Origin: Thioclava nitratireducens
Lineage (GTDB): Bacteria; Pseudomonadota; Alphaproteobacteria; Rhodobacterales; Rhodobacteraceae
Direction of reading: 5' to 3'
Length of the DNA stretch: 64,000 nucleotides
NCBI RefSeq assembly: GCF_001940525.2
Contig: NZ_CP019437.1
Coordinates: 3,211,501 to 3,275,500, forward strand
Positions within the stretch are counted from its first letter, which is position 1. Each line of letters starts with the position of its first letter. Below are positions 49,409 to 54,847 of this stretch, one piece after another. Both the position numbers and the translations under genes were made by a program. The notes beneath the pieces were generated by a model. That model ran no database searches. It saw only the letters and a list, made by a program, of their open reading frames with translations, and was not told the origin of the DNA.

Positions 49409-50016
49409 TTGGGGACGAGGCGATCATCACGGGTAAGTTCACCCGATCCGATCAACGACGTCGCGACCCTGAACATGCGCTCGGCCCCGTCGACCGGGGC
49501 AAGCATCGTCACCCGCCTCGCGGATGGGCAGAATCTGCGCAATCTCGGGTGTCGCATGGCAGAGGGGCGCCGTTGGTGCCAAGTTGCGACGCTCGCCGAT
49601 CCTGGCTTCGAGGGCTGGGCTGCGGGAGAGTATTTGATCGAAGGCACCGGGACACCGACTCGAGCGGAAGCCGTCCCGAGTCCGAAACCGAAGATCGTGA
49701 CAGGCTCAGGTCAGGAACGCGTGGGTTTCACCTCAGGCAGTTCGGATGCGCGACTTCAGGGGGGGGCTCCAGCCCGGGAAATCGCGCCGTTACCTGCTCA
49801 ACGCGCGGGACGGCAGGATCTCAACCTTCGGGTGATGGTGCAGGAAGCCCCCTCACCTACCGAATCTACAACCCCGACAAGAGCCCTCTCTTGGGCGAAA
49901 TGACGAAGAGCAAGGATTACCGCGGTCAGCTTTTCCAGTCGGGCGATCATGTGATCGAGGTGATCAACAGCACCAATGCGCCCTCGAGCTATGAGCGTCT
50001 CGTCGCGGTCAAGTAA
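49409..50016 (+). pseudogene. Bacterial SH3-domain protein remnant with several frameshifts
   Basis: Frame 2 begins with LNMRSAPSTGASIVTRLADG and ends its SH3b domain at FEGWAAGEYLIEG. Then the coding sense hops between frames: near a run of eight G (49760-49767) to a frame with RRYLLNARDG, back to DLNLRV, and finally to TYRIYNPDKSPLLGEMTKSK with SSYERLVAVK at the stop (50016). At least three frameshifts are needed to read it as one protein. The signal peptide normally before the SH3b domain is absent. The gene is dead. Confidence 0.7.
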
Positions 50017-50100
50017 GCGCGCGACGCAGCCCGCATGACACAGGCCACCGTCAAGCGCTTCCCACACAGGAAATACCGCGGTTAAGCGGCCCACGTCAGT

Positions 50101-50189
50101 CATCGGAGGGGAGGAGGAGGCGGTGACCTCAGGGAGGAGGAGAGAGGCCACCGCCAATTTCCGAGGCTCAGGGAGGAGGAGAGAGCCTC
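50101..50189 (-). ncRNA. Cuckoo/CcsR-type small RNA with two CCUCCUCCC-loop hairpins
   Basis: Two hairpins on the minus strand carry the same 13-base loop, 5'-UCUCCUCCUCCCU. Hairpin 1 has a perfect 7-bp stem (50183-50189 with 50163-50169), loop 50170-50182. Hairpin 2, 10 bases further on, has a 9-bp stem with one G-U pair (50144-50152 with 50122-50130), loop 50131-50143. A third CCTCCTCCC lies at 50117-50109. Paired hairpins with anti-Shine-Dalgarno CCUCCUCCC loops define the cuckoo RNAs, including CcsR1-4 of Rhodobacter, which are stress-induced. It lies downstream of an efflux operon on the same strand, so it may be processed from that transcript. No promoter was identified. Confidence 0.72.
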
Positions 50190-50306
50190 AGGAACTGGTG
50201 CAGCGAATTGCCCGCTGCGTTGGGATTGTTTTCGCACAGATGCTGCGCCGCAGAAATAGCTTATTCGACATAGCCGCGCTGCATCTTCCGCATAGCTGTC
50301 GCAAGG

Positions 50307-51347
50307 TCAGGATCCGTGCTGCGGCGCGCTGACCTCGGCCGATAGTCCCGGGGCCAATCTCGCAGTCTGCGGCTGATCCGGGTCAATCGAGATGCGCACC
50401 GGCACGCGCTGCGCGATCTTGGTGAAGTTGCCGGTCGCATTGGAGCCCGACAGCAGGCTGAACTGCCCTGCCGTGGCAGGCGAGAACCGTTCGATATGGC
50501 CTCTGAACTCGGTCTTCCCCAGAGCGTCGACGGTGAAGGTCACCGGCTCACCCATGCGCAGCCCTGCCAGCTGGGTCTCCTTGTAATTCGCGATCAGCCA
50601 GAGGTCGGAGGGCACGAGCGAAACCAGCGTGCTCCCGGCGCTGACGAACTTGCCGACCCGAGCCGAAACCTGACCCAGTCGCCCATCCTGGGGCGCACGG
50701 ATCACCGCATGATCGAGCGCCACCTGCGCCGCATCCAGCGACGCCTGCGCGGCATCGGTCTTCGCGGCGAGCGAGCGTTTGTTCAATTCCGCCGTCTGAA
50801 CCGCTTGTTGGGCCACATCGATGGCGCTTCGCGCCTCTTGCACGCCCGCCTTCGCCTGATCGAGCGTAAGCTGCGCCTGATCGGCATCCGATTGCGAGAC
50901 ATAGCTTTTCTTCGTCAGCTTCGAGGCCCGGTCGCGCGCGGTCTGCGCGGTGGCCTGCGCCGCTTTCGCCGAGGCCAGCGCGGCCTGTTTCGCCTCCAGC
51001 GTCGCCTTGGCCGAGTTCACCGCCTGCGCCCCGTTGGATTGCGCGGCCTTCGCCGTCTCAAGCGCGGCCTGCGCCTGTTCCACCGCCGCTTTCAACGCGC
51101 GATCGTCCAGCCGCACCAGCACATCGCCCTTCTTGACCTCCTCGAAATCGCTGACCGGCACCGCCGTGACTTCGGCCGCGACCTGCGCGGAGATCGGCGT
51201 GACCTTGCCCTGCAGATAGGCATTGTCGGTCCATGCGACGTCGGAACGGAAAGGCGGAAGGCGCCATGCATAGAGCACGGTCGCGACACCGGCGAGCGCG
51301 ATCAAAAGGATCAGGGCAGAAGCAATATAGCGGCGGGTCTGAGACAT
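50307..51347 (-). CDS. HlyD/EmrA-family membrane fusion protein
   Basis: A 346-residue periplasmic adaptor anchored by one N-terminal helix (YIASALILLIALAGVATVLY). The first half-barrel/lipoyl segment GKVTPISAQVAAEVTAVPVS and the second lipoyl half VIRAPQDGRLGQVSARVGKF flank a long Ala/Gln-rich coiled-coil hairpin (residues about 90-210). The start at 51347 lies 4 bases after the transporter stop. With the MFS gene upstream it should form a tripartite EmrAB-like pump delivering drugs to an outer-membrane channel; no TolC gene is present. The coupling suggests regulation by the MarR protein. Confidence 0.9.
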   Translation of the reverse strand: MSQTRRYIASALILLIALAGVATVLYAWRLPPFRSDVAWTDNAYLQGKVTPISAQVAAEVTAVPVSDFEEVKKGDVLVRLDDRALKAAVEQAQAALETAKAAQSNGAQAVNSAKATLEAKQAALASAKAAQATAQTARDRASKLTKKSYVSQSDADQAQLTLDQAKAGVQEARSAIDVAQQAVQTAELNKRSLAAKTDAAQASLDAAQVALDHAVIRAPQDGRLGQVSARVGKFVSAGSTLVSLVPSDLWLIANYKETQLAGLRMGEPVTFTVDALGKTEFRGHIERFSPATAGQFSLLSGSNATGNFTKIAQRVPVRISIDPDQPQTARLAPGLSAEVSAPQHGS

Positions 51348-51351
51348 CGGA

Positions 51352-53157
51352 TCAACTCGTGGAAACAGGGGTGGAGGGCGTAAGGCGCGGGAGCGGCCAG
51401 CTTCGGTGCAATGCGACATGGACGATCAGCCCGGCGAGCGCCGCCAGCGCGAACCAGAAGACCGCGCGGAACGCATCGTCATAAGCGAGGATCGCGGCCT
51501 GCTGCTGCACCGCGGAGGCGACGGAGGACAGCGCGCCCCCGGCCCGTGCGCCCGCATCCGCGGTCTGGCCACCAAGCGAAGCAGCACTCTGCGCGAGGGT
51601 CTGGCTCAACATCGGATTGTCGGGCGAAATCTGCGGCGAAAGCTGCGCCATGTGATAGGCGGTGCGGTCGACCACCAGCGAGCGGAACAGGCCGGAGCCG
51701 ATGACCCCGCCGATGGATTGCGTGGCTAGGAACAGCACGACGAAGCTCAGCAGGTAATGCGGTCCCTTCGCGAAGGCCGCCCCCAGCCCTTTCGCCATCG
51801 CGGGCGGCAGAAACAGGATGCCCGCGAAACCGACCATCGCCTGGCTGAGATACATCTGCTCGGGCCCGGTGAGCGCGGTCGATTGCGAATCGAGCCACGC
51901 TCCAGCCGCGATCAGAACCAGTGCGATGCCGTGAAACAGCGGCGCACGCGCCCCGCTATTGGTCAGCATCAGCACGCCGGTCGCGGCGAGCATCGACAGC
52001 GCGATGATCCCAAACAGCAACTGCTCCTGCCCGGGCTGAAGCCCCATGGTGCGCAGGAAGCCGACCGCGCCCGCGCTCTGCTCGGCGAGCGCGATGCGGA
52101 ACACTAGAAGCGTTCCCGCCAGATGCAGGATTGGCGGGCTCAGTAGCCAGTGGAAATCAATCAGCGGATTGGGGCGCTGCATCTCGATCAGCACCGCGCC
52201 CGCGACCATCCCGATGGCCGCCACGAGCGCCACGCCCAACCATTCGGTCTGCGTCCAGTAATCTAGCGCCCCGAACATGAAGACGCTGGTGAACGCCCCG
52301 AACCCGAACGCGAGCAGGCTGAAGGAGACGAAATCGAGCGGTTTGAGCACCTTTTGCAGAGGGCGCGGCGTCAGCGGCAGCGCGAAAATCAGCGCCAGCG
52401 CCACCAGCGCCATGCCCATCTGGAAAAGGCTCACCGCGTGCCAACTGGCATTCGCGGTGAGGTCCGGCAGCAGCACCCGCGCCAGAGGCCTGCCCACCAT
52501 GATCATCGTCAGAACGGCGGGGATAGCCACCTTCAGACGCTGTGCAGCGGGTATGGCCTCCAGCATGTAGAGAAAGCCGAGGCTCGACAGCGGCGCGGCG
52601 GCGCAGCCACTCAGGAACGCCACGATCACTGCGGAATGCAGGTCGTCGACCCAGAGATTCAGCACCATCGCCAGGACGAAGCTAACGATCCCCACCTCGG
52701 CGAAGCGCCGCAGACCGAACTGGTCGCGGATACGGATCAGCATCAGCGGCATAGAGGCGCGCGGCGCCATGAAGGCCGCCATCACCCAATAGGTGTTGTT
52801 CGTGGTGGCGTGAAGATCGCCCGCCAGCTGCGGCAGGTTGGCCGAGACGAAACCGGTCGCGAGCGATTGCGACAGCGCCACGAAAACGGCTGCGCTGGCA
52901 TAGACGATCCGCTTTGCACCGGAATGGTCGGGCTCTGGCGGAGCGGCGGGCTGCGGCGCGGCGTCCGGCTCTGCGGTCTCTGCCGCTGTGGCTTCGTCTT
53001 GCTTGACTTCACGCTCTGCGGCGGCCTCGGTTGCGGGTCGCGTCTCCGCCTCTTCAGACCGCGCGCGCTCGCGCAGCGTCCGCTCGTCCGGCGATACCGG
53101 TTCGGCGGCCGTCGGACGCGCATCCGGGCCGTTGAGATTGCGAATCTGGGAATTCAT
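51352..53157 (-). CDS. DHA2-type (EmrB-like) MFS efflux transporter
   Basis: A 601-residue transporter of the 14-helix DHA2 class, beginning with an unusual cytoplasmic tail of about 85 residues rich in Ala, Glu and Pro. ATGFVSANLPQLAGDLHAT is helix 1, where EmrB-type proteins have a conserved acidic residue; here it is not obvious. The final helix FWFALAALAGLIVHVALHRS is followed by a short tail. It overlaps the MarR stop by 4 bases (ATGA). The pump partner is the HlyD-like gene downstream. Substrates are unknown hydrophobic toxicants. Confidence 0.9.
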   Translation of the reverse strand: MNSQIRNLNGPDARPTAAEPVSPDERTLRERARSEEAETRPATEAAAEREVKQDEATAAETAEPDAAPQPAAPPEPDHSGAKRIVYASAAVFVALSQSLATGFVSANLPQLAGDLHATTNNTYWVMAAFMAPRASMPLMLIRIRDQFGLRRFAEVGIVSFVLAMVLNLWVDDLHSAVIVAFLSGCAAAPLSSLGFLYMLEAIPAAQRLKVAIPAVLTMIMVGRPLARVLLPDLTANASWHAVSLFQMGMALVALALIFALPLTPRPLQKVLKPLDFVSFSLLAFGFGAFTSVFMFGALDYWTQTEWLGVALVAAIGMVAGAVLIEMQRPNPLIDFHWLLSPPILHLAGTLLVFRIALAEQSAGAVGFLRTMGLQPGQEQLLFGIIALSMLAATGVLMLTNSGARAPLFHGIALVLIAAGAWLDSQSTALTGPEQMYLSQAMVGFAGILFLPPAMAKGLGAAFAKGPHYLLSFVVLFLATQSIGGVIGSGLFRSLVVDRTAYHMAQLSPQISPDNPMLSQTLAQSAASLGGQTADAGARAGGALSSVASAVQQQAAILAYDDAFRAVFWFALAALAGLIVHVALHRSWPLPRLTPSTPVSTS

Positions 53158-53633
53158 TGGCCGCGCATCCTTTCGAGGTTGGCCTGCATCCGCTCCATCG
53201 TCTTGCGGGCGCGGGCGACCTCGTCGGCGTCGAGTCCTTCGTAGAGCTGCGCGCGCAGCGCCTCGACGAAGGTCTCGATCTCGGAGGCGTTCGCACGGGC
53301 GTGATCGGTCAGGAAAATCTGGCGGACGCGTTTGTCCTTGGGATCGGCGCGCCGCTCCACGAAGCCGAGCTTCTCCAGCCCGTCGAGCGTGCGGTTCAGC
53401 GTCGGCGTCTCGATCACCAGCGTTTCCGCCAGTTGCCGCTGGCTCATCCCCTCGTCGCGCGAGATCGCAAGGATGGCCTGCGCCCGCGCGAAGGTCAGCC
53501 CCATGTCCCGCGCCTGTGCGTCGAACATCGCGCGCACCGAACGCGCCGTCAGCATCATCGTGCGCGTCAACTCGGCACGGTCGCGGCGGGCGGCTTCGCT
53601 GGGCACGGATAGTTCTGCGGCACGGTCGGACAT
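53154..53633 (-). CDS. MarR-family transcriptional regulator of the efflux operon
   Basis: A 159-residue winged-helix protein. LTFARAQAILAISRDEGMSQ, RQLAETLVIETPTLNRTLDG and LEKLGFVERRADPKDKRVRQ are the DNA-binding core and wing. Flanking helices form the dimer interface. It is the first gene of the leftward operon with the MFS and HlyD genes, coupled by ATGA, and lies 18 bases from the palindrome at 53652-53665. The EmrR/MprA-like arrangement predicts that a pump substrate releases the repressor. Length is normal. Confidence 0.9.
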   Translation of the reverse strand: MSDRAAELSVPSEAARRDRAELTRTMMLTARSVRAMFDAQARDMGLTFARAQAILAISRDEGMSQRQLAETLVIETPTLNRTLDGLEKLGFVERRADPKDKRVRQIFLTDHARANASEIETFVEALRAQLYEGLDADEVARARKTMERMQANLERMRGQ

Positions 53634-53651
53634 GGGGGCCTCGGGAATAAA

Positions 53652-53665
53652 GTTAGCCTGCTAAC
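53652..53665. promoter_or_regulatory. Palindrome GTTAGC-CT-GCTAAC, MarR operator
   Basis: A perfect 6-base inverted repeat with a 2-base centre, 18 bases before the marR start codon. A 14-16 base AT-edged palindrome at the head of a self-regulated marR operon is the usual target. It would let the protein repress its own operon. Confidence 0.6.
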
Positions 53666-53782
53666 GTTTTTGTCCCATCCCACATATCTTCTGTGTCGCG
53701 AGGATCAACATGGGTCCCCTGCACAGGGGGCCGTGCGAAATTGCGAAACGGAGCGATCTGGCCGTGCATCCAGCGCGAGAGC

Positions 53783-54847
53783 TCAGGCTGCGAGCAAGCT
53801 CACAAGGCCGAGACCAGCCGCCACGAGCATCACCAGCGACAGCGTCACCGTCGCGATCACGCGCGGCCCGGCGGCTGCCACCGCGCGAGCGTCGACGCCA
53901 AGCCCCAGCGCTGCCATCGCGATCACCGTCAGGATCGACGCCCCCTGCCCCATCGGCGCCAGCGCGACTTCCGGCAGCGCCCCGGCAGAGCGCAGCACGA
54001 TCATCCCGAGAAACCCGAGGATGAAAAGCGGCGGCATGAGTCCACGCCGCACACGCCCTTCCGGTGCGGCAGTGCGTCCATCCGCCGGCAGGTGCGGCGC
54101 GAGGAACGACAGTACCACGGTGATCGGCCCCAGCATCAGGACCCGCACCAGCTTCACCAGCGTGCCGAGCTGGATCGCCCCGGCCCCCATCGGCGCCGCT
54201 GCAGCCAGAACTTGCGGCACCGCATAGACGGTGATCCCCGACAGGATCCCGTAACCGTTGACGCTCATTCCCGCCACATGGCCGACGACCGGCAGCAACA
54301 GAACCACCGCCACGCCGAGCACGGCGGTGAACGCGATCGCGGCACTAACATCGTCGCTGTCTGCGTCGATCACCGGGGCGACGGCGGCGATGGCGGAATT
54401 GCCGCAGATACCGTTGCCGCAGGCGATCAGCAATGCCATCCGGGCCGGCAGGCGCAAGGCCCGCCCCAGCAGATATGCGGTGGGCACCATGAGCGCGACC
54501 ACGGCGACAATCCCGGCCAGCAAGCCCGGACCGACCGACAACAGGGTCTGTGCGCTCACCGAGGCGCCGAGCAGCACGATCGCGATCTCCAGCACCGTCT
54601 TGGCCGAGAAGCGGATACCGGCCTCGAAACGTGCAGGCGGAGCCCAGAGGGAGCGCACCACCGCCCCGATCAGGATCGCCAGCACCAACGGCTCCAGCCA
54701 TTTCGCCCCGAACAGCGCGTGCTCTGCCATACCGCCCAACGCCGCGAGCGCGGCGACGCCGATGCTCAACCCGACCCCAGGAGCGTAAGCGCGAAGCGCG
54801 AGCTGCGGACGGGCGAAACGGCAGGGCAGGATCGAATGAAGCGGCAA
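53783..54847 (-). CDS. YeiH/YadS-type putative sulfate exporter family membrane protein
   Basis: A 354-residue protein with about ten helices and the UPF0324 (YeiH) signatures GIRFSAKTVLEIAIVLLGAS, CGNGICGNSAIAAVAPVI and GYGILSGITVYAVPQVLAAA. I chose the TTG at 54847 because GAGGAG sits 6 bases before it and the family begins there; the alternative GTG at 54892 has no ribosome site. The transport substrate is not established for most members (sulfite, sulfate or taurine-related anions are suggested). It is divergent from a LysR-type regulator. Confidence 0.82.
   Translation of the reverse strand: MPLHSILPCRFARPQLALRAYAPGVGLSIGVAALAALGGMAEHALFGAKWLEPLVLAILIGAVVRSLWAPPARFEAGIRFSAKTVLEIAIVLLGASVSAQTLLSVGPGLLAGIVAVVALMVPTAYLLGRALRLPARMALLIACGNGICGNSAIAAVAPVIDADSDDVSAAIAFTAVLGVAVVLLLPVVGHVAGMSVNGYGILSGITVYAVPQVLAAAAPMGAGAIQLGTLVKLVRVLMLGPITVVLSFLAPHLPADGRTAAPEGRVRRGLMPPLFILGFLGMIVLRSAGALPEVALAPMGQGASILTVIAMAALGLGVDARAVAAAGPRVIATVTLSLVMLVAAGLGLVSLLAA

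Follow-up and report, generated by a model that had tools for sequence, protein, structure and literature searches.

A predicted stand-alone cuckoo-type small RNA preceded by a PhaR-type operator in Thioclava nitratireducens

Cuckoo RNAs, published with a range of 2 to 4 hairpins, are known as stress RNAs, of oxidative stress in Rhodobacter and of nitrogen stress in rhizobia. The hairpin pair analysed here lies in a window of T. nitratireducens DNA (the whole 64,000-nucleotide stretch under analysis). Cuckoo RNAs with two, three and four copies have been described (PMC3927594), and SmelA075 and SmelA099 of S. meliloti and RS0680a of R. sphaeroides are presented in that source as tandem hairpins with CCUCCUCCC loops and variable stems, occurring in several copies per genome. 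The window pair likewise has these features and the same number of stem loops, two, as RS0680a; unlike the three RNAs as described there, it sits after an EmrA-like gene and a PhaR-type operator. Its hairpin and loop design is also common to CcsR1-4 of R. sphaeroides, but these adjoin a DUF1127 gene and the window pair has no DUF1127 neighbour. As far as the cited accounts go, there are four CcsR RNAs in R. sphaeroides (PMC8625941, PMC10253847), which are processed from a 3' UTR (PMC8625941) and have an RpoHI/RpoHII promoter (PMC10253847).

The S. meliloti RNA ar14/NfeR1 resembles the window RNA in its repeated CCUCCUCCC loops, in being a stand-alone gene and in its nutrient-state control, the last of which is a proposal for the window RNA. 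It differs in having three hairpins and in being controlled by LsrB and NtrC; two mRNAs that encode ABC periplasmic components are reported to be silenced by it, with redundancy among its loops (PMC10746234). A precedent for PhaR control, though not for the RNA type, is the S. meliloti small RNA MmgR, which is repressed by PhaR/AniA and has a PhaR-type site in its promoter; the description cited mentions no CCUCCUCCC loops (PMC12542648). The same source gives CTGCNNNGCAG as the PhaR site of R. sphaeroides, and at the S. meliloti phaP promoters it places two PhaR boxes that flank the -35 (PMC12542648).

A conserved hairpin pair of the cuckoo kind

Both hairpins lie on the minus strand, hairpin 1 at 50159..50194 and hairpin 2 at 50119..50155, with a gap of 3 nt between them. 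They have the 13-nt loop UCUCCUCCUCCCU in common, in which CCUCCUCCC occupies minus-strand positions 50179-50171 (hairpin 1) and 50140-50132 (hairpin 2). The folding energy of the 77-nt region was -41.5 kcal/mol, whereas shuffles averaged -21.6 (z -7.23), and none of 200 shuffles was as good. A search for CTCTCCTCCTCCCTGAG with up to 2 mismatches returned 2 matches in the window, both at the hairpin pair, with 0.02 expected from shuffles. The tandem hairpins with identical loops read by a first-pass annotation of this DNA were borne out by this fold and by conservation, and the G-U pair it had seen is present in hairpin 2. A third CCTCCTCCC (50109..50117, minus strand) is kept in 4 of the 5 genomes; the folds show no hairpin there. 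The 138-nt fold included a long-range closing helix, which was set aside as unsupported because its 3' side differs in relatives, as judged by eye. The fold also contained a small leader hairpin (50200..50218, minus strand), in a stretch that is terminator-like on the plus strand (50195-50223). This plus-strand stem overlaps the RNA leader, and plus-strand read-through would be antisense to the RNA.

Across five Thioclava genomes (the window against 4 orthologues), each of the two hairpins was 97-100% identical and the 15-base operator described below was 100% identical. The spacer from operator to hairpin 1 had 76-80% identity, a drift almost equal to that of emrA third codon positions, where 74-84 of 300 (25-28%) differ, and identity fell to 26-45% in the stretch beyond +125. 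This pattern suggests that selection acts on the hairpins and the operator, with the spacer between them exempt.

Covariation, which had been proposed earlier from two stems, was assessed in two small, partly related samples: the 12 hairpins of the own genome and 7 orphan loci, the latter being five orthologues plus two loci from other species, with a small effective sample. In the own-genome set, 76.9% of cells paired against 57.4% in shuffles, two-sided cells numbered 27 against 11.8, and the covariation score was 0.584 against 0.278, with 0 of 500 shuffles reaching 0.584; an alignment slide of +1 still gave 0.402. Two-sided change was seen in 8 of 9 pairs, which 56 of 500 shuffles equalled. 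At the orphan loci, pairing held in 98.6% of cells, compared with 25-46% in slid controls, and there were 6 two-sided cells, a count reached by 0 of 500 shuffles; two-sided change in 3 of 21 pairs was reached by 95 of 500. Further pair types were matched by 57 of 500 shuffles in the own-genome set and by 469 of 500 in the orphan set. Covariation supports hairpin 1, and hairpin 2 includes two pairs with two-sided change. The earlier proposal held on relatives, some measures being unremarkable.

The element thus has what is expected of cuckoo RNAs, namely at least two adjacent hairpins with CCUCCUCCC in each loop and, within these small and partly related samples, variable stems with pairing kept. 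The Rfam model for CcsR1 (RF02791) matched over positions 1-83 of its 83 at 50.6 bits (E 6.5e-10, gathering score 65.3), and that for ar14 (RF02344) at 51.5 bits (E 5.8e-7, gathering score 58.8). Formal membership in either family was dropped, the scores being below gathering though above noise; at gathering scores, a tRNA alone was found in the whole window. In an array of similar hairpins elsewhere in the genome, the first unit reached 58.6 bits with CcsR1, also below gathering, and the end reached 61.1 bits with ar14. The cuckoo/CcsR identity given in the first-pass annotation accordingly stands as far as structure and covariation go, for a real cuckoo/CcsR-like RNA, and falls short at the Rfam gathering scores. 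The check it had suggested came out divided in the same way, with covariance-model scores below gathering and clear conservation in relatives. Judged from its sequence, the pair stands alone as a two-hairpin unit of the cuckoo (CcsR/ar14-like) kind, and it is very probably a real small RNA of that known type.

A PhaR-type operator upstream of the hairpins

An exact PhaR-type operator, TTCTGCGGCGCAGCA, with the core CTGCNNNGCAG, lies upstream of the pair at 50241..50255 (no strand), as would be predicted for a PhaR-regulated gene. It is followed at a fixed distance by the half-site CAACGCAGC (50214..50222, minus strand), which is invariant in 7 of the 7 aligned orphan loci. The operator falls within a conserved block (50229..50298, minus strand) that has 4 to 5 differences in 70 positions against each of the 4 orthologues, as counted by eye. 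The promoter would lie in this block (50298-50229); a scan of 49900-53800 gave no sigma-70-like site. The window copy does not show a pair of boxes on either side of a recognisable -35/-10, as at S. meliloti phaP, and has CGAAAA at the place of the CTATCT of other genera (by eye).

The core CTGCNNNGCAG alone occurred in the window at chance level (2 found, 1.92 expected), and the argument therefore depends on the longer match, on its conservation and on the genes found beside such sites. When the upstream element was searched with up to 3 mismatches in 248 family genomes, 22 places were found in 21 genomes; a phasin gene adjoins 16 of them, and the other six are the window and five unexplained places. 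Eight places in the own genome carry the exact sequence TNCTGCNNNGCAGCA, and 5 of them are at PHB-type genes: the phasin gene next to phaR is preceded by two, a thiolase gene and a patatin-like gene by one each, and the fifth is at phaZ/phaC, within the opening codons of the phaC frame as called. The remaining three are the window site, a site inside a DUF1127-linked array and one unexplained site. With one mismatch allowed, there were 135 matches against 65 for the reversed pattern. Each of the 16 Thioclava genomes has a single phaR gene. The own phasin had a Pfam score of 22.5 (cut-off 24.9) and no NCBIfam match; it is so named because of this sub-cut-off match, its position between phaC and phaR, and the 16 relatives that adjoin similar operators.

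What is new here is the PhaR link, which is moderately supported. PhaR together with CcsR1, NfeR1 or a cuckoo RNA was not reported in the literature searched, whose scope lay outside the 2015 cuckoo family, CcsR and CcaF1 papers; one Rhodovulum genome paper has PhaR and DUF1127. There is, then, weak evidence that a PhaR-cuckoo link is unpublished.

Genomic setting and other origins of the RNA

The genes upstream of the pair are all on the minus strand and encode an EmrA-like periplasmic adaptor of the HlyD family (50307..51419), an EmrB-like MFS efflux permease (51352..53157) and a MarR-family regulator (53154..53633). The first-pass annotation had called this a MarR-controlled EmrAB-like operon; the regulator matches Pfam MarR above the cut-off, and the scores for the MFS protein and for the EmrA model TIGR00998 are below theirs. 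An inverted repeat, GTTAGCAGGCTAAC, lies directly before marR at 53667-53654 and is a likely MarR operator (by eye). Beyond the hairpins, an SH3-domain reading frame (49409-50016, plus strand) seems to be continued in another frame to 50016 and is perhaps frameshifted.

The same annotation had taken the drug-pump setting as its main point, with the hairpins cut from a MarR-controlled marR-emrB-emrA transcript as a 3' UTR-derived RNA that drug exposure would raise. The geometry suits this origin, hairpin 1 starting 112 nt past the emrA stop on the same strand, and no minus-strand terminator-like site was found between the two. CcsR1-4 offer a parallel in R. sphaeroides, being processed from a 3' UTR by the account cited (PMC8625941), and the pair follows emrA in 5 of the 5 genomes that carry this copy. 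This linkage is confined to one clade, 5 of 16 Thioclava genomes. Seven other Thioclava genomes have an EmrA relative (48-78% identity) with no pair there, and in the four whose only EmrA relatives are about 35% identical, the loops located by the hairpin model were confined to one array. Of the 231 EmrA-related loci in named genomes, the best 80 were examined and 2 had the pair, in T. sediminum and Thioclava sp. JE_KL1, which are apparently two of the same five genomes. Similar pairs also adjoin unrelated genes. Two further pairs each are present in two other Thioclava genomes (G006 and G007), the first kind beside an imuC-like or acyltransferase-like gene (named by eye) and with the same upstream element, TTTCTGCnnCGCrGCA and the fixed-distance CAACGCAGC being common to these pairs and the window. 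The second kind of orphan pair in these genomes (L163, L165) adjoins a Cache/chemotaxis-like gene, as named by eye, and has no PhaR-type box. In addition, a conserved PhaR-type operator between emrA and the hairpins would be needless for a pure 3' UTR product. We consider such an origin unlikely, and the drug-pump link, left unsupported as the point of the locus by these counts, probably incidental. Read-through from the emrA mRNA is possible, and the pump is a neighbour that may add such a transcript.

The remark that no DUF1127 gene stands beside the hairpins was correct. The genome's six DUF1127 matches are all outside the window, and the arrangement termed CIN1, with a DUF1127 gene directly upstream of CcsR RNAs, is not found at the pair. 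One of the six precedes ten same-strand hairpins with the same loop motif (G000:C1:1658111-1658620). This array occupies 4597-5136 of L015 (G000:C1:1658096-1658635, minus strand), and its loops 4 and 5 are separated by an exact PhaR-type box. Each of the 16 Thioclava genomes has an array of this sort, with 8 to 10 loops following a DUF1127 match. Given the four CcsR RNAs of R. sphaeroides and the two stem loops of RS0680a, the ten-hairpin array can be read as about five two-hairpin units. It was put aside as a novelty, five such units standing against the four R. sphaeroides RNAs and a locus of a different genus (L248) having 14 TCCTCCTCCC loops behind its DUF1127 match, a number above that of the Thioclava arrays seen. 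The window pair was 80% identical to unit 1 of the array and 59-73% identical to its other adjacent pairs, all figures being raised by the shared loops; most simply, it would be a paralogue of unit 1.

Boxes also accompany the arrays. Upstream of DUF1127, 12 of 16 Thioclava genomes have one, which is exact in 3 and has one mismatch in 9; within the array, 11 of 16 have an exact box. Both are absent in G006, G007, G011 and G013. In most Thioclava genomes the upstream box is followed by TTGTGCannCGCAGCAT and CCATCTT, a stretch that, by eye, looks like a promoter with a second box over its spacer. Three further sites with one mismatch stand at other distances. PhaR sites are not universal at cuckoo RNAs, since four arrays and the two Cache-linked pairs are without a box.

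The array hairpins bear on a second alternative, that the pair merely protects or ends the emrA mRNA and has no trans targets. Its position after emrA and its stable stems would fit such a role. The loop sequence, however, is the same in both window hairpins and in the 10 array hairpins while the stems vary, which points to the loops; similar pairs occur at other places, and no U-run follows hairpin 2 in the sequence. A weak terminator-like stem lies after hairpin 2 (50075..50090, minus strand), one of 6 such sites in the scanned region with 2.3 expected. We regard this role as very unlikely. A 27-codon gene before hairpin 1 (ATG at 50271, TGA just before the stem), as a shortened DUF1127 counterpart with the hairpins as its 3' UTR, is highly improbable and was rejected: all 5 genomes keep the frame open up to its end at hairpin 1, but 4 to 5 of its 27 residues differ between the window and each relative, its second half drifts by 20-24%, and the operator accounts for its conserved first half.

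Proposed PhaR control, candidate targets and distribution in the family

We favour, as a rather probable reading of the sequence, a minus-strand small RNA that would be repressed by PhaR until PHB granules titrate PhaR and would then block GGGAGGAG-type ribosome-binding sites. The hairpin unit would be transcribed as a small RNA from the minus strand and kept off by PhaR, the PHB-binding regulator encoded in the own genome. PHB granules would draw PhaR from the DNA and release the RNA, whose two anti-Shine-Dalgarno loops would pair with GGGAGGAG-type sites and block translation. The loop is complementary to Shine-Dalgarno sites of this type, and GGGAGGAG stands 3-12 nt before an ATG at 49 places in the own genome against 2 for the reversed pattern. 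Translations were made for 30 of these places, with no long frame in at least 4 of those 30, and 10 proteins were chosen by eye for Pfam analysis; 9 of these were transport proteins (7 of them periplasmic binding proteins) and 1 an acyl-CoA dehydrogenase, a selection for which we claim no enrichment. Solute-uptake genes may thus be among the targets, and with full PHB stores the RNA would lower uptake. The emr genes were dropped as obvious loop targets, no long GGGAGGAG-like match being seen by eye in their ribosome-binding regions. If the operator does exert control, a carbon-store sensor would be joined to a broad translation-blocking RNA, and PhaR control would give one reason why such units persist at new places in genomes.

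A wider reading for the Rhodobacteraceae is held tentatively, with a little less than even confidence. Here PhaR would control a set of cuckoo RNAs, both stand-alone units and DUF1127-linked arrays, by binding paired boxes placed around the -35 in the manner of phasin promoters. A full carbon store would release PhaR from the DNA, and the multi-loop RNAs then made would lower nutrient uptake and repress other mRNAs that have strong Shine-Dalgarno sequences; the window would hold a lineage-specific copy of this switch. The layout of CTGCNNNGCAG, 45-75 nt and TCCTCCTCCCTG was found at 19 places in 14 of 394 family genomes, with no match in the other 380. At the same spacing, a scrambled control consisting of one palindrome gave 2 places in 2 of 394, and the reversed pattern gave none. 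Fifteen of the 19 places are in 11 other genera and had no DUF1127 match in a one-sequence phmmer search within the locus; the remaining 4 comprise the window locus, two arrays of Thioclava and a match that falls within a DUF1127 frame. The 15 places are not all independent, L247 and L250 being nearly identical over the stretch compared. A common layout of box, TTGTGC-like/GCAGCA element and CTA or CCA was present at 11 of them, and resembles the S. meliloti phaP promoters, as these are described, with their two boxes flanking the -35 (PMC12542648).

When a promoter pattern drawn from these loci, with the loop left out, was searched in 248 genomes, 8 places in 7 genomes matched. Five were known cuckoo loci, two were DUF1127-like genes with hairpins behind them whose loops are similar but shorter, and one, a miss, was a SulP-like gene, these last three places being judged by eye. 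Independence from the loci that supplied the pattern applies to the two DUF1127-like places and the miss alone. At L293, as seen by eye, a DUF1127-like gene is followed by hairpins with TTCCTCCC or ATCCTCCC loops and has a one-mismatch box upstream; this locus may be a diverged cuckoo array.
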